Assembly (NCBI RefSeq): GCF_051622035.1
Contig: NC_135366.1
Coordinates: 935,001 to 999,000 of the forward strand
Length of the DNA: 64,000 nt
From: Arctopsyche grandis
Lineage: Eukaryota; Arthropoda; Insecta; Trichoptera; Hydropsychidae
Reading direction: 5' to 3'
Every line of letters begins with the position of its first letter. The stretch's first letter is position 1. The translations under genes were made by a program, and so were the position numbers. Below, in pieces: positions 15,385-63,478 of this stretch. The notes beneath the pieces are model-generated. The model searched no databases. It was given only the letters and a program-made list of their open reading frames with translations, and was not told the DNA's origin.

Positions 15385-18300
15385 TAAATATGCATATTTA
15401 TATTACAAATAAATATCTATTCGTACTTGAAGACAGTAAGTAATATGTTTGTTTTTTGGTACATGTGATAAGAGTGAGTTGATGTTGCGTTCTTCAGAAC
15501 GCAAAGATGACATGTCCGTGTCGGAGATGACTCATCGAACACAAACAAGATGATGGAATTCCATATTTGAAATGTTGCAGCGAACAGGGTTATAAGCGTC
15601 TGTGTATTTATGTTATGTGTTATTTAATTTTAATAACGCTTGCAACGTTTGTTCTATCCAACATTTCATCTGAATGTGACAATTGCTTCATTTTAAATGT
15701 AAATTACTTGAAATTTGCTAAATCACTCTTAAGATGAGTCGTGTGATTTGAATCATGTGATCATATAAGACCGATTCGATTATTTTATGTTTGTGTTTGG
15801 TGTCAATCCTTGACACTCTTGAATATATGAATATTGAACTATGGAAAAATAGTGACTTTTCAATTTCATTAGTATCACAAAATATTTTTGGATGTCTAGA
15901 TGTTGTAGATGTAGACTTAAACACGAAAAAGCGCGCTTGGCGATTAAGTGTTTAAATATCATTTCATATATAAGAAAAAAAATCAGGTGCTACTTTAGTA
16001 TGCGGTCTACCTTAGCATGCGATCTACCTTTGAATCGCAGTCGATTATTTTTTTTATTTGTATCTTAGCAACGACCTGTTCATTATAATTTTTGTTTTTT
16101 CCTGCCGCCCCATAATGTTGTCGAAGCATTTCTATCAAGATATCGTCAGCAGCGAAGATAATACCGACCCTAACAACCTAATCTTAACCTTTCCACCGCG
16201 TACGACTGCTATACATGCTATACATACATCCTAGCGAACATGCCCTCAGAACTTGGAAGTTCCAACCTGTATAAGAGCCGTCTATTGTGTTAATGGAATC
16301 AGACTGCAGTAGTACGTGTCGATGATCAATTCACTGATGAGATTCCTATAGAACGGGGCGTCAGGCAAGGATGCATCCTATCACCTACTCTTTTTAACAC
16401 CTACACCGAATCTATCTTCCACGATGCTCTCCAAGAGGCGGAGGGCATCAAGGTGGGCGGCGAGACGATCACCAATATAAGATATGCTGATGACACGGCA
16501 CTAGTCGCTGAAAATTTAGCAGACCTGCAAAGATCTCTAGACCGTGTACATCAAGAAAGCAATCGAAGAGGTCTGCGCATAAATCTAAAGAAGACAAAAT
16601 TTATGATAGTAGATAGAATGCAAACAGACACCGGGAATCTAACCTTGGATGGAGAGGTGATAGAAAGAGTAAAAAGATTCAAATACCTGGGTACCTGGCT
16701 GAATGAAGAGAAGGACCCAGATGAAGATCTAAGAATCCGCATCGAGATGGCTAGAACAGCATTTGTAATAAAAATGAAGGCAGCGCTTACAAACAAGCAT
16801 CTCAATCTTCATACGCGGTTGAGATTCGCGAAGAGCTACGTCTGGACAGTATTACTACACGGATGTGAGACGTGGACTCTGAAAACCAAGATGATCAGCC
16901 GCATTGAAGCTTTTGAGATGTGGGTCTATACGCGTATGCTGAAGATTCCGTGGACCAAAAAGATATCAAACGAAGCTGTCCTCGGCATGATGGGGAGAGG
17001 CAGGGAACTTGTTTCTGTCATCAAGCGGAGAAAGATGGAGTACCTCGGACACATGATACGGGGTCCAAAATACGAATTTCTCCGTTTGATAACCATGGGG
17101 AAAACAGAAGGAAAAAAATGGATTGGCAGGAAAAAGTTATCTTGGCTTCGAAACATGCGCATGTGGACCGATATGAGCGCCGAAGAGCTGTTCCGAGCCG
17201 CTGAAGACCGATGCGGATATATTCAAATAATCGACGAGGTGGTCGCCAACGTCCGGATGCAGACAAGGCATTAACAAGAAGAAGAAGATTGTGTTAAAAT
17301 TTTATAACTTGGTTGAAAATATTACTAAATGTATACTTTACCAAATTCAATAGATGGCAGTAGTTAAAAAAAATTCAATATAGGCTAAAATAATTTATAA
17401 AATATTACAACCTATATTTATAGTCGAAAACGCGATAGCAAAATCCGCAAAAAAGCAGCCGCGTACAGGGCATGTTCGCTAAATTTGGTGACGCGGGCAA
17501 AGGGTTAAATGAATAGGGCCAACCCTAACTTAACCTAACCTAACCTGACCCTTCAATAAATAGGTGTTGGCTGCTAAGATATCTTTTTAATTTTAATTTT
17601 ATTTCATCAGTATTTTCACAAAAAAAAGCTGCCAACACATTTATTTGAGGGTCAGGTTAGGTTAGGTTGAGTTAGGGTTGGCCCTATTCATTTAACATTA
17701 GGTTGTTAGGCTCGGTATAATTCAGTCTCACAGTCACACGCGAGAACTGAGACCGCATATTAAAGTAAAAACGTGAAGGTCGATCGCATACTAAAGTAGA
17801 TATGTGAAGGTAGACTGCATACTAAAGTGGCACCAAAATTCAAGCATATAAGTTCACTGTAAATATGACATTTATTATGTGTTATGTGTTAAGTGTGGAT
17901 CCCCGATCAGGAAAGGCCGATTTAAATAGTAAAATATCGGTATACCGTCGCACGGACATGTCACCTTTGGGTTCCAAGGTTGCGATATATGTATGTGTAT
18001 ATACAATTTTAAAGGTGTTTATTTTAAACAGAAACTGCAGGAAATCCTCGACAAAAAGGAGGAGCAGGACGGCAACGTTCAGGGTGTTACCACGCTGTCG
18101 ACCGAGGACACGTCCGAAAGCAATTCGATGCCAGGTGCGTCTTCGGCGTCGAACGCCAACGGCGATTACCATCTGACGGTACAGAATTTCGACCTCGTCG
18201 ACATACCGATGCCGAACGCCTCGAACACGCAACCGTTGCGACCGCCGCCCGACTTCGACTCCGTCAGGGTCGGCATCGATCAGACCGACTTTGTCATTAA

Positions 18301-49582: not shown

Positions 49583-50014
49583 TGTTGCGTAGGGGTGGGT
49601 GGAGGATCCAAGTAAAAGGCCAAAGTCGTTTCACAGCATTTATTGGTGATTAAGGAGATACACGCACTGGCAGTGCCCCGTCCAGAATGTCTTGATATCG
49701 CATAAGTACCTCCTTATAAAGGAAAGGTCTCTCGGGGCATCTTCGACGTCCGGTTACTTCCCTATTGTTTAGGCATGTACCCGGATATGTATTCCCACGA
49801 CACTCAGTCCCACGCTATCGGTCACTTCTGAGAACTCCAAGGGAATGCGACTGAGTGCCGCTACTACGCCAATTCGGTGGCCATTGTTTAGCCTACTTGC
49901 ACTTAGTCTGCAGATAATCCTCGAAACCAATTATAACGGTCGTACAGTGTCAGGGATGCGTCTCGGCCTAATCCGATTGCACTTAACCGGCGGCTCTTTT
50001 CAGTATACGCTACA
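49583..50014. mobile_element. Solo LTR, same family as 40778
   Basis: Starts TGTTGCGTAGGGGTGGGTGG and ends TATACGCTACA, flanked by ATAT on both sides (49579-49582, 50015-50018). 432 bp, probably close to the standard LTR length. Confidence 0.82.
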
Positions 50015-50758
50015 ATATCAAGAAAAACAAACCAGTAACTCGTTTATATGTTTACTTTCAAAATTAAATACACTGAAAATATTTTTTTTAAGATGCGATT
50101 TAAATTTCTAGCTTAATTGAGAATCGTTCAAAATTTTACTTTCGTCTACTAAAAAAGGCAACGCTTAAAAACTGGTATTTATTAAAGCAAGATAAATATT
50201 CAAACGATAAAATGCGTTTTTTAAATACATTAAATATTGAATTTGATTCACCTTTAAGATAAAAGGTTAAATTATCAATTTTTATTTTAAAAATCTTCAT
50301 TTTTAAATGGCCCTTTTCGAAAACACTTATGTATGTATATACAAATCTATCGAAATCTATCAGACCACTTGAGCAACGCCCACCTTGACCTTTAAACTAT
50401 TCCTTTTTTAGACCGTTGCATAAAAAACGTCGATGTTCCACTTTTTACATCGCGACTTATCTGATATAAAAGTAATCGAACTCTATGGATTAACAGCTTA
50501 GAGGTTTAATCTAAAATAAAACTACTCGAGTGACACGAACGGTCAAAGCTAACGTTTATTTATTTCCAAAACGGTCATTTGCTTGAATAATTTGACCTTA
50601 TTATAAACAATGACAGAGTCGACATGGCGAGAATGAGTTGTCATTAACATTACAATAACATTGTTGTTATTTACATACTACATTGTATTCTGATTGCTTA
50701 AATTGTTGCACAATCGCTTACATATTCATTATTTGTACATTTGATACTAAATATTGTA

Positions 50759-53236
50759 CTACACTTTAAATATATATGAAAACATATCTATAATATTAAA
50801 TTTTTCTTCTTTGGATGTTTTTGGGTCGTCTTTTTTTGTATCTTCGGTGAATTTAAGAGGTGCCTCCGTGTCTAAAGCTCTTTGGGCTTCTTTCTCAAGC
50901 GAAATGAATATCATTTGCTTTTGAAGTATAGGAACTACGAGGTTGTAATGAGTGATCTTTGAATTGATCTTTTTCACCAAGTCGTTGTGCTTTTCCACGC
51001 ACCGAGACCAGTCGTACTCTTCGGACGGATTCAATGGAACGTTGCCTAATTTGCTACGCTCCTTTAAAAGGCTAGAACGTAACTTTTCGACTTCGTGCCT
51101 GATGTCTTTTTGAAGGGTTATCCATTCCGGAGTAAATCCATTATCGATTAAAACCTAAAATGTAATTAATATTAATTTGAAAGCAAAATATGTGTATATT
51201 TTTACTATCATATGAACCTGATTCATTTTATGTGTTACAAAGTCGACATATGGATTTGTATTTTGATGTAATGGTAAAGGTTTTCCAATTCCTTTTAAGT
51301 TATTAAATTCTCCTTTGGACATTGCCTCTTGGATGAGATCTTCGACGAGTCGATCAAATCCATATCTTAATGAAACAAACCTCAATTAATCTTTTTGTTA
51401 ACTGTATTACATCGAATCGAATATTATCTAAGCTATCATATTATATAAGGCTTGCTCCTACTTAGTAGAAAATATTTAAAATCGGACCCGATAATTTTAA
51501 CAAAATCCTCATTATAAAGATAAAAAAAATGTCAAGAATAATGAAAAATATGTAAATATAAATGTATTTATAGGACAAATTTATCTAAATAGTTATTAAA
51601 TAGTAAATAAATCTATACATATATATGTACAGGGCTGCCGAGAGGAATCTCAGGCCCTGGGGAAAAATAAATTCTGGTCCTATGACAAACTAAAAAAAAG
51701 ATCTTTTAGATTTATCAGAACTATTAGAAAAATACCTATATGTTGGTTGCTATTTTTTTAAATAATTAAATAGAAAAGTATGATATAATTCTATAACAAG
51801 TATAATTCTTGTATCAATGTGATGAAAATAAAAAAAAATCACTAAATTTAATAAACCGGAAGTGGGATTTCTTCCTCTTGGAAGTCAAAAAGGTTGTGAC
51901 CACGATTCTTTCCACACCCCTGAACGTGTCAAGCTGAAAATCTATATTTGTATTCTTTATGTACTAACTTAGAACTGACGAGGTTTTGGTTAGAATTCGT
52001 AAACCGGAAGTAGTATTTTTTTGTAAAACAATATTTCATTATTTTATTTTGACCTTTTAAATTATTTTTATTTTTTTGATATTTAATTTGTATAATAATT
52101 TAAGTGATTTTAAGTAATAAAAAAAAATTTGAACAAAATCCGACAACCGGAAGTAGAACTTTTGTCTTGTGTAAATTTCCCTACATTTGCGTTCAATTTG
52201 AATCGAAAATGATCTCGTAACCGGTATATGTGAACGTGTATGTATGTTTTTTTTTGTGACCTTATATTCCTCAAATACATAGATAAAGTCATGGGTTGGT
52301 CACATTCTAATTTTCTTCATAGGAGCAGACCTTGATTTATTCGTCAATTAAATAGCAACGGGCTGGACCATTTACAAGTAAATTACTTCGTCTTTATATC
52401 ATGTTTTTTCTTCGCTATCGGTTGATTTTTGTCCATCAATGCATTTTCAGCAGCCGTAGTCTTGGCTATCCGATGTTCCATAACGTTTTGCGCAGCACGA
52501 GACGCTTTCACTTTGACCCATTGCTTTTCCCTTTGCATCGGTGTTCCGATTCCAACTCCTTCGTAGCTCAAATACTGCCGATGTTGAGGCGCCGTATGCT
52601 TCAAAGTTTAAACACTAAATAGTATATCCATACATATATCAAAATAATTAGTTATACCAATTATGTATATGTGTACCCTGATATCGAATTCACCAACATC
52701 TTCATCTTTTAGTAGGTTATTTTGCTTCGTAATTTTTTTGTGAATTTGCCTAAATGCCGATTCAACCTCTTTGAACTTGTTCACGTCTGATTGCGGAGAT
52801 CCCGAATCTGGATGATATTTTTTAGCGAGAAGGAGGTATGCTTGGCGTACCGTTTCATAGTCACTACTTTCGTTAACATTGAGAATTTCGTAACATCTCT
52901 GAAATGGTTTAGTTGATTTAATCTGATATATAAAAATATTATTCAATTCAATAGTTTTTACTCACACTCAAATCTTTGTCCAATTTGCTTGATGAAAAAC
53001 GTATTTTAGAAATATTATTGAGTGACAAAAATATAGTTCTTTCTATACACCTGAAAATATATAGAAAAAATTACAAATAAATAATAAAACTATAATATTT
53101 ATAGAATATAAAAAAAATATTTTTTTTTTTCAAAATTTGATAACGTATATACGTATTATTTGAAATAAATATAAAAATTCATTTGAAATTCCATTTGATG
53201 TTTAATTATAGAAAGATAGAATAAAATTCACCGCAT
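50759..53236 (-). CDS. DNAJC28-like protein (J domain plus DUF1992), six coding exons
   Basis: Exons in transcript order: 53236-53232, 53050-52966, 52898-52677, 52598-52387, 51365-51218, 51154-50759. They total 1068 bases, or 355 residues, in phase throughout. Residues 1-30 (MRCIERTIFLSLNNISKIRF...) are basic/hydroxylated with no acid before Glu5, a possible mitochondrial targeting sequence. The J domain at about 31-95 carries the HPD motif (59-61) needed to stimulate Hsp70. Next comes HTAPQHRQYLSYEGVGIGTP (105-124), then the DUF1992 region with RLVEDLIQEAMSKGEF, GIGKPL and LIDNGFTPEW. This order is that of vertebrate DNAJC28. Its function is poorly known; a co-chaperone role is inferred from the HPD. 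The first coding exon holds only ATGCG, so the start is the least certain part. The first junction puts Arg at residue 2. Confidence 0.9.
51366..52386. repeat. DNAJC28 intron with inverted copy of the ACTTCCGGTT repeat
   Basis: The intron between exons 4 and 5 contains, at about 51800-52270, an inverted relative of 29880-30430: AAACCGGAAGTGGGATTTC, GTAAACCGGAAGTAGTATT and CCGACAACCGGAAGTAGAAC. The remaining sequence is AT-rich. Confidence 0.6.
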
Positions 53237-53659
53237 GAATATAAAATTAAGAAATTCTGACAACTAAAAAGAACTGTCAAAGTGACATAACAATCGGAAG
53301 TCAAAACAAAGTCGAAAAAGATATTATACTGGCCATGGTTGAAATTAATAATAGGAAAACACAGGTAATTGTATTGTAGTTTTAGTAATTAAGGGATAAT
53401 TTCTAGTTGCAATAAAATCAAAGAAAAAGTACATATCCTCAAGTAATTTCCAATTTCAGCATCATCGATGCGGTAAAATAGAAAATTCAAAAAGTGCCCA
53501 ATTCTATATATATAATTTATAGCCGATCTGTAACCAAAACTCAATGATATAACGAGTTCAAAAATGCATTTATATGATAGACAAGATTTCGTTTATATTT
53601 TTTAAACAGTGAAACTCGTACAATATGAAATTCAAGTACATATGTACATACATGTAGGT

Positions 53660-53835
53660 TCGGTGATCATTGGTCACAAAAGTCACTAAAATCTCTATAA
53701 CGGAAGACCTGGCAGCCGAAAAGTCCATCATACTAACGAAAACTCGAGTGTCAAATATTCCGCATTAGCGGTTTTCATAGCAAAAATTGTCTTTGTGGTG
53801 ACCACCGCAATGTGACTAATAATCCAATTACCGTA
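53660..53835. mobile_element. MITE family F
   Basis: GGTTCGGTGATCATTGGTCAC on the left and GTGACTAATAATCCAATTA on the right, interior GAAAAGTCCATCATACTAACG. Inverse orientation to 59165-59375. Confidence 0.75.
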
Positions 53836-53981
53836 CATATACTATCTAGTTTTAAAATCTTGAAGGAATTGTTTATATTTTTTCCTCTAGCATCATTGAT
53901 TAGGAACTACAGAATGTTTATGTACTTCATTCATTATTTTTTTTTAGTTGAGTTAGCTGTACCTTTTTGAATTCAATATAT

Positions 53982-54506
53982 AGCCAGCAGTATGGCTCGG
54001 TGGTTGCGTTTATGTTTAGTACCAACAGATTACCTGGTTCGATCCCGTGCTAATTTTTAATACTGCTGGTCAGACTTGGATATCTGTGACTCCAAGTCAA
54101 TCGTTTCTTATCAGAGTTTGCCAATTTATCTGATTTCATTGTTGAAATTAGAGAAATGTAATATTAATAGAAGGGCCTTTACGAATAAATAATCTTTGTC
54201 AATATTACGCGGTACGTCTCTATAAATACGCTACAACGCACGGAATACAATCGGATCAATTCACTTATAAAAATGTATCCCATGTTGTTTATTGTGTTTT
54301 TGCATGCATTGTCCAATTTTTACCGATGCTGGCCCATCTTGCGTGTAATATAAACAAACAGAGAAGTTTTTATCCGACATACGTCGAGCACCAAGCATCA
54401 AATACGACTAATGCTAGAATTATTTAGGATTGTCTGTGGACAGTCGTCACTTGACAACAATATTACGCCTAAAGCCACTTCTATTAATATAACATTTCTC
54501 TGGTTG
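53982..54506 (+). mobile_element. SINE with a MITE inserted at its 3' end
   Basis: SINE head TATAGCCAGCAGTATGGCTCGG with GGTTCGATCCC and core GACTCCAAGTCAATCGTTTC at 53982-54145. It is followed by a MITE (about 54149-54500) whose ends ATTAGAGAAATGTAATATTAA and TTAATATAACATTTCTCTGG are inverted repeats, flanked by TTGAAAT-like sequence. Confidence 0.65.
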
Positions 54507-54849
54507 AAATAGTTCCTCCATCAAATTGGAAAAATCATCTTACCTGCTGCCACAAATATCTGAATTTGATTTATGTATAATATGTAAAAAATTATGTACA
54601 AGTCTAAATACATAGATATCTCAATGGATTAATTAATTGTTATTTTCGTTTTCTTCAGCCTCTCGAAATACAGGAATTTATGTAATAAAAATAAAATATA
54701 CAAACATACACAGCCATTGAAAAATAGATCAAAATTCACACTTGATCGTTCTAATTATTATTTGCTATTGTACAAAAACCTTAAGCGGGCTCTTCACTCG
54801 CCCGTGAAAATCGCTGAGTGTGGTGACATCTTTTTACTAACCCGTTAGC

Positions 54850-54991
54850 GCCAGTGGCGTAGGTCGAAATTTTGGGCCCTAATGCAAAAATTTCTCCCCA
54901 CTTCCTGGCCAGTTTGTTCGCTCCTGATTTTATTTCTTCGTATGAATTTCGTAATTTACTAACATTCTCATATATACGATTCAACACCTAA
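54850..54991 (-). mobile_element. hAT-type end fragment
   Basis: CAGTGGCGTAGGTCGAAATT at 54850 is a hAT-like terminus (same start as 4672). The minus-strand frame reads YEEIKSGANKLARKWGEIFA. No second end was found; it stops where the Harbinger fragment begins. Confidence 0.5.
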
Positions 54992-55440
54992 AGGTCTGTT
55001 CATACTTAACAGCACTGCACGACTCCGTTTCAAATATGTCATTTTATTACATTTCTATTCATATCTACCTACACGTCGCGGTCACGTCACGTTTACAGCA
55101 ATTTGGCCGAGTGCAAGGCAAAATCGGCTTACTTATACATTAGAGGCCATGACGATACGGCGCAATATTGCTTACGTCGTATTGTTGAGTACTTGCAATA
55201 TGAATGCATACACGTGCATTCGTAGCTACGCGTCAGAATACAAGTCAGCAAAAATGTTTCGACGTTTATCGAACGAAAAATTATGTATAATCGCGCTGTT
55301 GTTGGAAGAAGACGCTCAAGACGGCAATAAAAAAGCGCAGGGGCGTTTTGATGTGCATCCCATGTTAAAAAATAGAAAAACCTAAGGAGAGTTTTGGACA
55401 CTGTATAAGGAGCTTGTGGATAATGGACAAAATTTTTTTT
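54992..55440 (+). mobile_element. Harbinger transposon 5' fragment with transposase N-terminus
   Basis: Starts AGGTCTGTTCATACTTAACAG, preceded by TAA. Coding region from about 55250: RLSNEKLCIIALLLEEDAQD, then RFDVHPMLKNRKT, and after the first stop GEFWTLYKELVDNGQ. This matches the N-terminal start of HARBI1-type nucleases (LLLEEE...WVHPILKKR...GEFHTL). The rest, including the DDE nuclease, is absent, and an in-frame stop separates the two pieces. Confidence 0.75.
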
Positions 55441-55643
55441 AATATTTCCAGTATTGAGATATTTAAAAAAGTAAATCAAGACAATTTTTCAGTATTTGAT
55501 AGGCGTTTATTAAGTATTTTACATGACTAGGTTCAGGAAAAATGGAAATCGTCAAAAACTGATAAACTTGAAAACCATTTTTCAAAATATTGGAATATGT
55601 ACATACATACATACATATACGTACATATGTATATAATTTTATA

Positions 55644-58244
55644 CTAATAATCACATATTTTCTGGTGTATTGTCTTTAAAGATTGCAACTGAACAAAATC
55701 AGCGCAGATATCTAGGGCAGATAGAGGACTACCGTCGTTACCTTCTTGCATAAAGTAATGTCGTAATTCGGCAATGAATTTCCTTGCTTTTCGATGAGTT
55801 ACTCGTTCGTGTTCAGTATCATCCCCTTCACTTTCATGTTCTTCCGATCTGTCTTCATTTGTTGCTGAATTTTTTTCAATTGTGTCTACATAGTCTTCAT
55901 TCTCATTATAACATTGAATATTGTCATCCATCGATAAAAACTCTTCAAAGTTTCTGACACGCTGCAAAACTATTTCACTTTCAGTATTGGTCTTATCCGG
56001 CAAATTTTTACTGGAATTCTTAAATCCACATTGAGCAAAGCAGTTTTGGATCGTCTCGCTGCTTACTTTTCGCCAGCTGTCTGCCATAAATTGGACGGCT
56101 ATTAATACGGTAATCTTCGAACTAACTTCTTCAGCTGTTGAAGATGATGGCAGTAAATTTTCTTCAATTGCTTCATGAATGTAATGAACTAGCCTTCCAC
56201 GATACAGTGCCTTTAGATTTTTTATGATGCCTACTTCCAAAGGTTGCATCATAGTTGGGTCATTAGCTGGAAGAAATTCCAATTGAATATTTTTCAAATA
56301 ATCTAAACGAGGGTGTACAGTATAATTATCTAGAAGTAGCATAATTTTTCTAGACTTCTGTTGCAGTTCCTTATCCCAACATTTTAACCATTTTTGAAAA
56401 ATATCTGAAGTCATCCTGGCATTCTTGTTGGCACAATAGATTACTGGCAAACTATTCATTCTAAGTCCTTTAAAGCATTGAGGTTTAGCATTCTTCGCAA
56501 TAACTAACAGCTTCCTTTTATCATTTCCTGACATATTTAAGCAACATAATACAGTAAAACGATCCGATACGCCTTTAGAAGTCAATGTATGTTTGTAATT
56601 TAGGGAACCATCTGGCATAGCACGGAAAAGTAAACCTGTTTCTGTAGCATTGTAGATGTCATCTGCATCGAACATTTGGAGCAAGTCTAGTAATGTAGTA
56701 GATTTCCATGGTTCAGTGTTTGCAGCATCAGGAATCTCTCTTTGGCCAGGTATTTTCTTAAATTTAATTTCATGTCTAGATTTCCACCGAGATAACCAAC
56801 CGTCTGTTGCTTTAAAGCTAGTGTGACCCAGTTTATTAGCTAACTCTTCTGATTTACTTTTCAACGTTGAACCATTGATGCCCAAACCCTGTATGTTTGC
56901 ATAAGAGAACCATTGATTGAGGGCCTCCTCGACATCGGGATGCTTGCCTTCTCGTTTTCGTTTTTGGGATTTAGCCAGTTGTCCATGCAATGCCCATTCC
57001 TCTCGCAGTTTGACTTGCTGGCTTATCACCCGAGCGATGGTGGATTTTGGTACTCCAGTTATCTTCGCCAATTGGCGATGACTGGTGTTTAACGGTTGAC
57101 TTTTAATTTGATCTAGTAAAGCTATTTTATTAGCTAGTGTTAAATCTTTTCGTGGCACCTTAGCAACAGCCTAATAAAATGAAAGAATCATTAGTTAAAA
57201 AAAAACAAATAATTTCAATTTAAAATATCCAGAGACCACAGTAATTGCCCAGCCTATAATAAGGATATACAATCTCTTTTTCTTTGATAAGATTCCATCA
57301 TGTCGTGGTGAGAATGATTGAGAACTCCAATTATTCTAAAGGCTATAATGGTGGTATTCTTTGGCTTTCCAAATCAGATAGGCTTGAAGTGAGGATCATA
57401 ACTAAAATAAATCAACTAGCAGCAGACAATGACACTGCTAAGACTTAACCAAAGTCAAGAACAAAGAAAAAGATAAAAGAAAAGCTAGGATGTTCTTATC
57501 AAACTCTAAGAATTACAGAACCAAATATAATAGAATCTTCGCAGAACTGATGGCTACGAGGATGACAATATATGTATGTATGTAGTGCTATCTATAAGAA
57601 ATTAACAAGAGCACCATTGTGATCATACAAAGTTTTAATTAATGCTATTTTTTACTTAAAAATTCAAGGAGTAGGCCAATTAATACAATCTCTTCTGTTT
57701 TCCATGATATAAATATTACCATTACATATTTTCCTTCAGTATTATTTTGTTCCTGGCAAAATGAAAGCTCGTTCATGCTCCGACTCTTTTCCTCCAGGTT
57801 AGAATCGCTCGGCAATCTTCCATTATCTACACACTCATCAGGTAAATTTGATGGTTGTGCATTAGTATTGAAACACTGATCCTCCAGAACTAAGTCATCG
57901 AGCAAATTTTCCTCTACATTAATGTCCAAGCATTCGGTCAACCTCCGTCGAGCTCTTTCATCATTTTGAATACAAATCTTCTTGAAACTAATGAACAATC
58001 TCAAGTTGTTTTCACAGGACGAGCATATTGTATTGGGTAGTTTTTCATGTTTTCTCACCTGTAAGGGAAATACGAATAGAAAAATAGTATCAATGAGATA
58101 TAATTGATTATAAACATTTGAGGAATTGACCTGTAAGTGACAGCAGCGCCAGATGCGTTCCACAAGTTCTTGAGAATCTTTTTTATCGAAAATAGGAACG
58201 GAAGATTCAGCTGTCACATAGCACAGGCAAAGTCGACACTCCAT
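55644..58244 (-). CDS. ZAD domain fused to a pogo/Tigger-type transposase-derived protein
   Basis: Exons in transcript order: 58244-58131, 58058-57720, 57170-55644; 38 + 113 + 508 codons plus stop, all phase 0. Residues 1-151 are a ZAD: CRLC at 3-6 and CSSC at 50-53 are the four zinc ligands; ZADs dimerise and mark many insect C2H2 factors. The large exon follows a strong acceptor (TTTTTTTTTAACTAATG, then TTTCATTTTATTAG). It encodes a psq-type helix-turn-helix (LTLANKIALLDQIK...VPKSTIARVI), a CENP-B-like second HTH, and a DDE region of TIGD4/6 type (FTVLCCLNMSGNDKRKLLVI, MTSDIFQKWL). The expected first Asp is Thr (YNATETG), the second is kept (LLLDN) and the third is Glu (QPLEVG), so nuclease activity is unlikely. 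A Glu/Asp-rich tail follows. The large frame begins with GTG at 57158 and no AUG near its 5' end, which supports splicing to upstream coding exons. The alternative is that the ZAD exons read through to the stop near 57645 and the Tigger frame is separate. A nuclear DNA-binding role is inferred. Confidence 0.78.
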
Positions 58245-58517: not shown

Positions 58518-58625
58518 GGGGTTCGGTGATTACTGGTCACAAAGTACTCGTCACAAAGTCACTAAAATCTCTATAACGGAACATCTGGCAGCTGAAAATT
58601 CCATCATACTAACGAGAACTTGATA
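58518..58625. mobile_element. MITE family F, partial
   Basis: GTTCGGTGATTACTGGTCACAAAG, AAATCTCTATAACGGAACATC, ATTCCATCATACTAACGAG. The second half is absent. Confidence 0.65.
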
Positions 58626-58639
58626 GTTAACTTATATTT

Positions 58640-59160
58640 ACTCTTTTCATAGATGCTTATATTTTAATATGAATTTTTGGAACTTCCCCTACGTAGACGG
58701 CTTCTGGCTGATCCGTAAACAGCGGCGTATATAGAGTGCGAAAGATCCAGGAACAGCTACTAGCTCGACCGCAAGTGGTTGAAGGCTGGGGCAGGAGATA
58801 AGAAAAGATCTGAGGTCGACCGGCTCTGAAGAAAGTTTGATGAAGAAGAGCGTTTCTTCTCGCGCGTGTCCGGAGCTACGTCCGGGGAGTGGGGGTAGCA
58901 GGATGCCAACCTAGACATTGGCATTGCTACTAACTGAAGGGACGATGAGGAAGACGTAGCGTTATATCCCATTCAAATGTTAATATTATTTCTAGAAAAA
59001 TGTGATTACTTGAAAAATATAGAACTGTTTCATATACTTTTTTTTATCACTTTAAAATTATAATAAAAGTTTTTGATGTAGTACATTTTTATAAAATCAG
59101 TGTTCCAGATATCTTTTATACTTATTGTATTGAAAATATATGCGTTAGTGTCGCACATAT
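58640..59160. other. Unassigned stretch with a GC-rich block
   Basis: A GC-rich block at about 58690-58980 stands out from its AT-rich flanks. It has no recognisable protein; the minus-strand 70-codon frame (58760-58972) is Ser-rich and unsupported. It could be an old LTR or a regulatory piece upstream of the ZAD-Tigger gene, whose start lies about 450 bp away. Confidence 0.35.
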
Positions 59161-59164
59161 ACCT

Positions 59165-59375
59165 ATGCATTTGTTGTAATTGGACTATTCGTCACATTGT
59201 GGTGGTCACAAAGACAATTTTTGCCATGAAAATTACGAATACACAATATTTGGCACTCAAGTTCTTGTTAGTATGATAGTTATCGTTAGTATGATGGACT
59301 TTTCGGCTGCCAGATGTTCCGTTATAGAGATTTTAGTGACTTTGTGATGAGTACTTTGTGACCAGTAATAACCGA
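59165..59375. mobile_element. MITE family F, complete
   Basis: TAATTGGACTATTCGTCACA at the left and TTTGTGACCAGTAATAACCG at the right, interior TTAGTATGATGGACTTTTCGG. The uninterrupted version of 40680-41920. Confidence 0.75.
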
Positions 59376-60076
59376 ACCGCATTTGTGAAGTGCTCAAGAT
59401 GAGGAAATACTTCCATGATACTTTTCCATGTGCACATACATACATAAATACATACGAACATGTATAAATGTAATTATGCTAAATAGAATCAATCATATCG
59501 GCGACAAAGGCGTAAATTATAGTTGGTTTGTAATCATTAACGAAAAAGTATTGTAGTAAAACTTAATTTATATAAAGGCATTTGATGAAGAATTCATTAT
59601 TGTATCTAATGAATATGTACCAAAATTGTGAATTTACAAAGTGTAAAGTTACAATTTTTACCAACATAAATAAACTTTGCAAAAAAATAAATTACGAGTG
59701 AACAATTACGATGATATGTTTATTAATGTTTAAGATTTAACTATGAAGTCTCAAGATAATATGAATAGATCTAATTTTGCACGTTCTCGGTTTTTGAATT
59801 GGAACAACAATTTATGTTATACAAATGTTTAAATATCATATTATTGACTAAATATAACCAAAAACTTAGCAATGGATGGGATGCAAGAGTGAAACTGATT
59901 TATAAAAGTATTTAATACTTTATTCAAACAGTTTATACAGTTATGGAATTCACAATAGAACTGTTTATAACATACTGAATGAGTGAGTATGAACTACAGT
60001 GACAAAAGATTAAGAATATTTCATACAAATTTGGACTCCTGGCCAACTTGTCTTGTTATTTATTTTTTTATAATAT
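59376..60076. other. AT-rich intergenic DNA, no gene seen
   Basis: No frames with domains and no clear repeat termini. Confidence 0.45.
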
Positions 60077-60751: not shown

Positions 60752-62156
60752 TCACTTTTCCGGCATATCATTTTCTGCTGGTTTTGCATTTGAAAGATCT
60801 TCCCCCGCGTGACATTGCAGATGTCGTTTTAGATTTCTGCTGCTAACGAAACACTTGGAACAGATCCCGCATTTGAAAGACTTTTCCCCGTTGTGATAAA
60901 TCATGTGACGATTCAAAATTCCTTTTTCTATAAATCTCTTCGAACAGATCTCACACTTGAAAGGTTTTTCCCCGGTGTGATAGATCATGTGTCGATTTAA
61001 AACCCCTCTTTCGACAAAGCTTTTCGAGCAAATCTCACATTTGAATGGCTTTTCTCCGGTGTGATGGATCATATGTCGATTTAAAATCCCCCTTTCGACG
61101 AAACTCTTCGCGCATATCTTGCATTTGAACGTTTTTTCCCCAGTGTGACATTTCATATGTGTCGTCAGCAGATAATTCCTCACGAAACATTTTGAGCAAA
61201 TTTCACATTTGAACGGTTTCTCTCCAGTGTGGCATGTCATGTGCGTTATCAGCTCGCAATTTTTCATGAAACATTTCGAGCAGAGCTCGCATTTGAAAGG
61301 TTTTTCCCCGATGTGGTACTTCATATGACTGCTGATACTCTTCTTTTCGATGAAACACCTCGAGCAGATGTCGCATTTGAAAGGTTTTTCCCCAGTGTGA
61401 TACCGCATGTGTACAGTCAATTCGCAATTCCTAGCAAAAGACTTCGAACACATATCGCATTTAAATGGTCTCTCTCGGGTGTGACATTTCATGTGACTTT
61501 TAAGGTATTTATTTTTTAAAAAACATTTCGAACAGATCTCACATTTAAAAGATTTTTCCTCTGAGCGACATTTACTACTAGGCTGAAAAATTAAACAATC
61601 AATTATAACATTCTTTTTTTGATTAAATAACATTGACTTTTTTTGTTATTTTACCACAGGATATTTTCCCTTGGTACCATTTCTTGGAAGTTTATTGATG
61701 AGTATCTCTTTCTCTAGTTTGGAATCACCCGGTTGTCTGCCATTACTCGCATCATCTTTAGGGATATTATATGGCTGAGAATTGGTATGTGAAGATTCGT
61801 CTTCCCAAATTAAATCATCCAGAATGACTTCCTCTACTTTGATCCCTGATCTTTTTCTCGCTTTTTTATCGTTTTGTAAGCAAATATTTTTAAAATCAGT
61901 GAACAAATTCAAGTTGGTTTTACACGACCAACACATTGTGTAGGGCAGTTTTTCATGTTCTGTTATCTGTAAAGAAAATTTAAATACATATATCTAAATA
62001 TTTGAATAGAATTAACTAATCATTTGAGTAGGAATAACTGACCCGTAGGTGGCAGCAGTTCCAAATGCATTCCAGTAGTTTCAAAGAGTCTGAATGTTCA
62101 TATATAGGGACTGAAGATTCTTCTGTAACATAACATAAGCAAAGTCGACACTCCAT
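60752..62156 (-). CDS. ZAD-C2H2 zinc-finger transcription factor, three exons
   Basis: Exons in transcript order: 62156-62043, 61966-61655, 61582-60752; 38 + 104 + 276 codons plus stop, giving 418 residues, all phase 0. The N-terminal ZAD has CRLC at 3-6 and CWSC at 50-53. The last exon carries nine consecutive C2H2 fingers of the FKCxxC...HxxxH type with HTGEKPFKC linkers. Fingers 6-8 are very alike (SFVERG/FIEKG LNRHM), which points to recent internal duplication. Proteins of this class bind DNA in the nucleus as ZAD-linked dimers; the target cannot be predicted here. Exon 1 is 27/38 identical to exon 1 of the neighbour at 58244 and exon 2 is clearly related, so the two are tandem duplicates. 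They lie on the same strand, 2.5 kb apart, with a solo LTR and a MITE between. Confidence 0.95.
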
Positions 62157-62911: not shown

Positions 62912-63478
62912 ATTCAGTGATTATTCCGCACAAAGCAATCTCGCACACGTCACTAAAATCTTGATCAATATCTGGCATCCTAAAATTCCATTCATCGAGA
63001 GCTACGCACTAACATTATCAATTGTTCCCTTAAAGTTTCACTTAAAAAATGAGAGCCAATCTTGATGATATTAACTTGAATTTAAAGTTAAAAAAGTTTT
63101 TAACATTTATTCAATGGTGCATGCTACATATACAGTCAATACGTAACAATAGTTATTTTAGTATCGTCGATTTCAAAATAGCCCAGATGCACTACTGATT
63201 ATCACGATACTAACCTATTTCACTATCAATAATCTTTATACGTGTGAAACTGTTAACAATATTGATAGTGTAGCATTCCCCAATACATTTTTTGCCTTCA
63301 ATAATGCTACTGTCCACTACGGTAAACGGATTATTGCGTAAATTGCGATCGCGCGCACGATAATCGTTGCCAAAAAAGTCGCGAAATTTTCCGCAGAGAT
63401 TTTGGGTGCCAGATGTTTCGTGATCGAGATTTTAGTAACGTGTGCGAGATCGCTTTTAGCGGAATAATCATCGAACTA
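62912..63478. mobile_element. Palindromic MITE-like element
   Basis: Ends GATTATTCCGCACAAAGCAATCTCGCACACG and CGTGTGCGAGATCGCTTTTAGCGGAATAATC are inverted, with inner CACTAAAATCTTGATC / GATCGAGATTTTAGTAACG. Related to 10146-10330 but longer. Confidence 0.7.

Follow-up and report, generated by a model that had tools for sequence, protein, structure and literature searches.

Layout of the locus

The window, that is, the whole 64,000-nucleotide stretch of DNA analysed here, corresponds to C12:935001-999000 in a 476-Mb assembly, which its ZAD genes mark as probably that of an insect, and carries on its minus strand, from 58244 to 55644, a predicted three-exon gene in which two exons for a ZAD domain and its linker precede a long exon derived from a Tigger/pogo-type transposase (Table 1). 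Its upstream neighbour on that strand is a tandem ZAD-C2H2 paralogue whose third exon encodes nine C2H2 motifs.

Table 1. Coordinates of the predicted fusion gene, its candidate catalytic codons and its tandem paralogue, in window positions
Feature	Position	Strand	Description
Exon 1	58131..58244	-	opens with ATG (MECRLCLC...); first ZAD half, with the C3/C6 pair; aligns with paralogue 62156-62043
Intron 1	58059..58130	-	72 nt, GT-AG; open in frame (intron 1 of the paralogue, 76 nt)
Exon 2	57720..58058	-	second ZAD half (C50/C53) and linker; ends at a phase-0 donor
Intron 2	57171..57719	-	549 nt; GT donor 57719-57718, AG acceptor 57172-57171
Exon 3	55644..57170	-	508 codons, phase-0 opening, ends with TAG; Tigger/pogo-type transposase-derived frame
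Codon of T176	56643..56645	-	first catalytic Asp in four aligned relatives
Codon of D281	56328..56330	-	second catalytic Asp, retained
Codon of E312	56235..56237	-	third catalytic Asp in L016 and L029
AATAAA	55506..55511	-	possible polyadenylation signal, 132 nt beyond the stop codon
ZAD-C2H2 paralogue, tandem	60752..62156	-	exon 1 62156-62043, exon 2 61966-61655, exon 3 61582-60752

Joined across both introns, the three exons give a predicted frame of 659 residues whose sole stop codon is at its end. We infer the splice between the ZAD exons and exon 3 from phase and paralogy; the donor (ATG/GTAATA) and acceptor (ATTAG) of intron 2 are acceptable, not optimal, and the acceptor is pyrimidine-rich, ending in TTATTAG. 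The ZAD frame also reads through the exon-2 donor to a stop at 57645. By chance, about 5e-13 open frames of 508 codons would be expected in 64 kb on both strands at the local base composition. An earlier note on this DNA had described two ZAD exons ending in phase 0 at a GT (57720/57719), a pyrimidine tract before exon 3, and a phase-0 opening of that exon into a 508-codon Tigger-like frame; direct reading of the sequence bears out all three, and the last agrees also with matches to DDE_1 and HTH_Tnp_Tc5. The same note was mistaken in having exon 3 begin with GTG, since the first codon is GCT (Ala) and GTG is codon 5.

Very abundant and little-diverged repeats lie on both flanks of the fusion locus, leaving it open to rearrangement. 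Upstream, an element at 58520-59378 with 101-nt terminal inverted repeats (TIRs; 95% complementary) begins 276 nt from the fusion ATG, and its TIR plus about 100 nt has 2528 candidates in the genome, the best 40 of which scored 93-100% identical. Downstream, 57 nt beyond the AATAAA of the fusion, a roughly 460-nt dispersed repeat occupies 54989-55449, with 4830 candidates, 40 scored, and best non-self rows at 94-97% identity; TIRs were sought in this repeat and none was clear. A further TIR element with 55-nt arms (87%) lies upstream of the ZAD-C2H2 paralogue at 62913-63475, its ends related to those of the 58520-59378 element, and a reverse-transcriptase frame of 326 aa (RVT_1, 76 bits) occupies 16294-17274. 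To the right of the window are an Rft-1 gene (Pfam, 490 bits) and several tandem ZAD-C2H2 genes (L043 1255-2979, L044 and L045).

The ZAD exons and their tandem paralogue

Translated with intron 1 retained, the ZAD frame matches Pfam PF07776 (zf-AD) at 47 bits against a cut-off of 28, and in the PDB the same translation matched nothing at E 0.001. Its cysteines C3, C6, C50 and C53 form two CxxC pairs, which we take to be candidate zinc ligands of the ZAD. ZAD matches are plentiful in this genome (989 PF07776 candidates, 150 scored), and among the 150 scored of 850 candidates for exon 2 the closest relative is C12:996661-996960 in the adjoining paralogue, at 54% identity.

Alignment to the paralogue is free of gaps, at 70-72% identity, through exon 1, intron 1 and the beginning of exon 2, the remainder of which aligns with gaps. 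In both genes exon 2 ends at the same phase-0 GT (...GGAAAATATGTAATG/GTAATA in the fusion and ...GGAAAATATCCTGTG/GTAAAA in the paralogue), and in another ZAD gene, L048 at C12:3.84 Mb, a GT likewise follows an exon-2 tail of similar sequence (NTEGRYSM versus NTEGKYVM). Next to this donor, the fusion and the paralogue are identical at only 15 of the last 24 bases of exon 2, against 25 of the first 60 bases inside the intron, and this counts against the fusion reading.

Between the fusion and the paralogue, the dN/dS of ZAD plus linker is 0.15 (142 codons; bootstrap 0-0.32), at a dS of 1.87 that is near saturation and also yields the bootstrap zeros. Unique amino-acid changes in the ZAD, fusion to paralogue, number 13:18, 1:4 and 9:14 with three outgroups, the second of which covers exon 1 only. 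With this dN/dS and fewer unique changes than in its finger-bearing paralogue, the ZAD part does not resemble a remnant in decay. A decaying ZAD copy is rejected because the relative rates reveal no faster change than in the paralogue. The motif scan for C2H2 fingers found none in exon 3, in intron 2 or at 50000-55643, and Pfam reported no C2H2 family in exon 3; with this simple scan empty, we also reject a C2H2 exon surviving as a remnant in intron 2 or further downstream as far as 50000.

The transposase-derived exon

Exon 3 matches DDE_1 in Pfam with 142.7 bits (residues 203-378) and HTH_Tnp_Tc5 with 54 bits (78-139), whereas its CENP-B_N match (residues 6-58) is weak, at 18.8 bits against a cut-off of 21.2. 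Residues 7-132 match the DNA-binding structure of CENP-B (1hlv, 4e-10), and HTH pairs of the CENP-B type bind DNA. Of the domains named in the earlier note, DDE_1 is matched, CENP-B_N stays below threshold, and for HTH_psq Pfam reported no match. The weakened first HTH may mean an altered DNA target.

That exon 3 has no AUG near its start, as had also been claimed, holds true: no in-frame Met precedes residue 166, which lies past both HTH regions, so that an exon further upstream would have to supply the start for the DNA-binding half unless translation begins at a non-AUG codon. Alternative start exons were scanned within intron 2, where the sole phase-0 ATG mini-exon has four codons (MITM, ahead of GTGCTC; its two nested ATGs were counted separately).

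In alignment, the catalytic triad of exon 3 reads T-D-E, where the multicopy L016 family has D-D-D. The T176 codon, ACA, is three bases away from either Asp codon, and the spacing between the second and third triad residues is 30, inside the Tigger DD29-36D range (given in passages of PMC7386202). Judged by its triad, the nuclease core is probably catalytically dead.

In a simple neutral model, a frame of 508 codons would acquire about seven stops at 0.1 substitutions per site, with a probability of no stop of about 7e-4. The relatives are too far for an exon-3 dN/dS, and counts of unique changes in exon 3 against L015 are rough at such distances. For the DNA-binding part they come to 22:13, 17:15 and 6:8; the DDE part gives 21:20, 25:21 and 29:14, and the tail 14:14, 8:4 and 12:14. 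These mixed counts suggest that exon 3 evolves at a rate close to that of L015 or perhaps somewhat faster.

Relatives of the Tigger-type frame in the genome

The genome search with exon 3 gave 226 candidates, of which 85, self included, were scored. Four of these matches span at least 400 residues, namely exon 3 itself, whose frame is intact, L015 (32% identical, the best other full-length match), L032 (27%) and L029 (26%). Another 17 span 300-399 residues, 12 of them without stops and mostly from the multicopy L016-type family, and the remaining 64 are shorter than 300 residues, with stops in 49. Identity among the scored matches reaches at most 50%, over 77 residues, and with all other scored copies at or below this level the exon-3 frame is probably old.

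Searched against the genome, the intron 2 sequence recovered itself alone. TIRs were sought between intron 2 and 53800-55643, and none was convincing, though worn-down ends are possible; the sole inverted-repeat signal near exon 3 is a TACATA microsatellite, reached by two of 300 shuffles, and otherwise nothing rose above the shuffles. We reject a recent transposon insertion on three grounds: none of the 85 scored matches is a close second copy, the genome search recovered intron 2 just once, and no TIRs were convincing. The first and third of these hold within searches of limited depth, which slightly lowers our confidence. Among viral contigs, the search for relatives of our alignment A2 gave 45 pattern matches, none of them confirmed.

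The long Tigger-type frames L015 1081-2661, L029 847-2442 and L032 682-2616 have each lost one triad residue, the third D to K in L015, the second D to F in L029 and the third D to C in L032, and are candidates for further domesticated genes. Two shorter open frames, L046 2110-3099 (330 aa) and L047 1613-2368 (252 aa), match HTH_Tnp_Tc5 and have no DDE_1 match, which makes them candidate domesticated genes with the DNA-binding domain only.

Tigger-type relics also occur close to other ZAD genes. Of 123 DDE/HTH places, taken like 223 ZAD places from the matches listed and with chiefly near-identical array copies left out, five have a ZAD place at a distance of 5 kb or less, the present locus among them; the Poisson expectation of 0.58 (P 3e-4) disregards the clustering of ZAD genes and of repeats and carries no weight. 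An antisense relic lies at L042 5858-6661 in the intron that separates ZAD exon 2 from the C2H2 exon, another lies at L039 between two ZAD-C2H2 genes, a third immediately 3' of the finger exon at L048, and at C6:5687199 the DDE/HTH place is upstream of its ZAD. Three of these four close pairs, L039, L042 and L048, were inspected, and none holds a second ZAD-Tigger fusion.

Origin of the gene and alternative explanations

We consider it probable, on the evidence of the sequence, that a duplicated ZAD gene captured a Tigger-type transposase frame and now encodes a domesticated, probably catalytically dead DNA-binding fusion protein. The presence of a paralogue with homologous exons 1 and 2 and the same donor makes it simplest to assume that the gene was duplicated in tandem and that exon 3 was then exchanged. 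The locus is unusually clear in that the paralogue retains its finger exon 3, so that the gene pair displays an exchange of zinc-finger and transposase exons at a common phase-0 donor. In this scenario, a ZAD-C2H2 gene would have been duplicated in tandem, the order of events presumably being duplication, exon loss and capture. The relics at L042, L039 and L048 place Tigger-type sequence in or beside other ZAD genes; insertion of a Tigger element in intron 2, with the zinc-finger exon then lost from one copy, would yield the present gene. The ZAD and linker exons would be spliced through the ancestral phase-0 donor to the captured frame of the pogo superfamily. The product, of about 659 residues, would pair through its ZAD, as expected from this domain family, and bind DNA through the transposase HTH domains, while its nuclease core would persist as a fold; from the families involved, it would be a dimeric sequence-specific DNA-binding protein acting as a transcription or chromatin regulator. 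The splice fusion put forward in the earlier note thus gains support from the paralogue, the constraint on the ZAD, the lack of an early Met, the absence of convincing TIRs and a broken triad in an open frame without a close second copy among the scored matches. Against it stand the less than optimal splice sites, the sub-threshold CENP-B_N match, the possibly faster change of exon 3 and the repeats on both flanks.

One could instead see two neighbours here, a ZAD-only gene or ageing pseudogene ending at 57645 and, behind it, a domesticated Tigger gene in its own right, whose first exon or promoter has escaped notice. The ZAD frame does continue to that stop, Tigger-type open frames without a ZAD match occur elsewhere in the genome (for example L015, L046 and L047), and passages of PMC7655104 report Drosophila ZAD proteins without C2H2 fingers. 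However, the donor position and phase are common to the fusion and the paralogue, the ZAD copy evolves no faster than the paralogue, and the Tigger DNA-binding domain lacks a Met of its own, with just one four-codon alternative start exon in intron 2. We therefore regard two separate genes as unlikely.

A transcribed fusion could also be an unselected by-product of splicing, without lasting function, and the mixed relative rates of exon 3 would fit this. But an unconstrained frame should have gathered stops as in the neutral model above, and the frame is probably old, with no other scored copy above 50% identity, so that we find such a by-product decidedly improbable. We give only a very slight chance to an active or recent transposon, not domesticated, that came to lie in phase behind the ZAD exons by accident: relics do adjoin other ZAD genes, yet the scored matches include no close second copy, convincing TIRs are wanting, the triad is T-D-E, and the frame is intact whereas most of the shorter matches hold stops. 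Capture of the Tigger-type frame by the duplicated ZAD gene remains our preferred explanation.

Comparison with known systems

The best-documented cases of transposase capture come from vertebrates, where KRAB is often the partner. Work by Cosby and colleagues in 2021 reportedly describes host exons that splice to a transposase exon, giving KRAB-transposase and other fusions in vertebrates, and we know of no ZAD partner in fusions of this vertebrate type. The gene described here would have arisen by the same route of transposase capture, in contrast to those KRAB-transposase fusions in an insect instead of a vertebrate host, and by analogy it is a likely insect parallel to the vertebrate transposase-fusion genes. 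What is new is the ZAD as partner family; host-transposase fusion itself is already known, and the gene is not a new kind of system.

In the open-licence literature, no ZAD-transposase gene appeared by title or start of abstract among the matches listed, although predicted ZAD-DDE_1 proteins may exist in domain-architecture databases. By term counts, the term ZAD is absent from the full texts of PMC10027918, PMC11837612 and PMC8472432, and the word transposase from that of PMC7655104. The earlier note, which knew of no described ZAD-Tigger gene, is in keeping with this literature, which has KRAB- and ZNF-pogo fusions and, among the matches listed, none with ZAD.

A more speculative and doubtful proposition makes ZAD the insect equivalent of vertebrate KRAB, a domain to which captured transposases are joined time and again. 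On this view the pogo-type DNA-binding domain would have gained a new means of dimerising through ZAD, and the resulting factor would bind Tigger-derived sites dispersed in the genome, regulating or silencing these, with the relics at other ZAD genes as raw material. A survey of ZAD genes whose third exon lacks C2H2 fingers would test such a KRAB-like role.

POGK is among the closest known counterparts. Twelve vertebrate genes derived from pogo are named in passages of Gao et al. 2020 (PMC7386202), among them three chimeras (CENPB, POGK with KRAB, and POGZ with ZNF), and the triad is well conserved in three of the twelve and partly conserved or not recognisable in nine. According to the same passages (PMC7386202), POGK likewise combines a partner domain of zinc-finger repressors with the HTH_Tnp_Tc5 and DDE_1 domains of the pogo superfamily and has partly lost its triad (DN35D); it differs in being mammalian, in carrying KRAB and not ZAD, and in belonging to the Passer family with a spacing of 35 against 30 here. 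CENP-B, JRK and the TIGD genes have the CENP-B_N/HTH_Tnp_Tc5/DDE_1 layout, which exon 3 resembles with its CENP-B_N match below cut-off, but they have no ZAD and are mostly independent domestications. On the ZAD side, parts of PMC5081699 state that four cysteines of the domain bind one zinc ion and that dimerisation has been shown for several ZADs, and parts of Kasinathan et al. 2020 (PMC7655104) describe, besides ZAD proteins without C2H2 fingers, others with extra domains. The ZAD, linker, exon layout and tandem clustering of the gene are those of insect ZAD-C2H2 genes as portrayed in these parts (PMC7655104), whereas in the predicted fusion a transposase replaces the C2H2 array.
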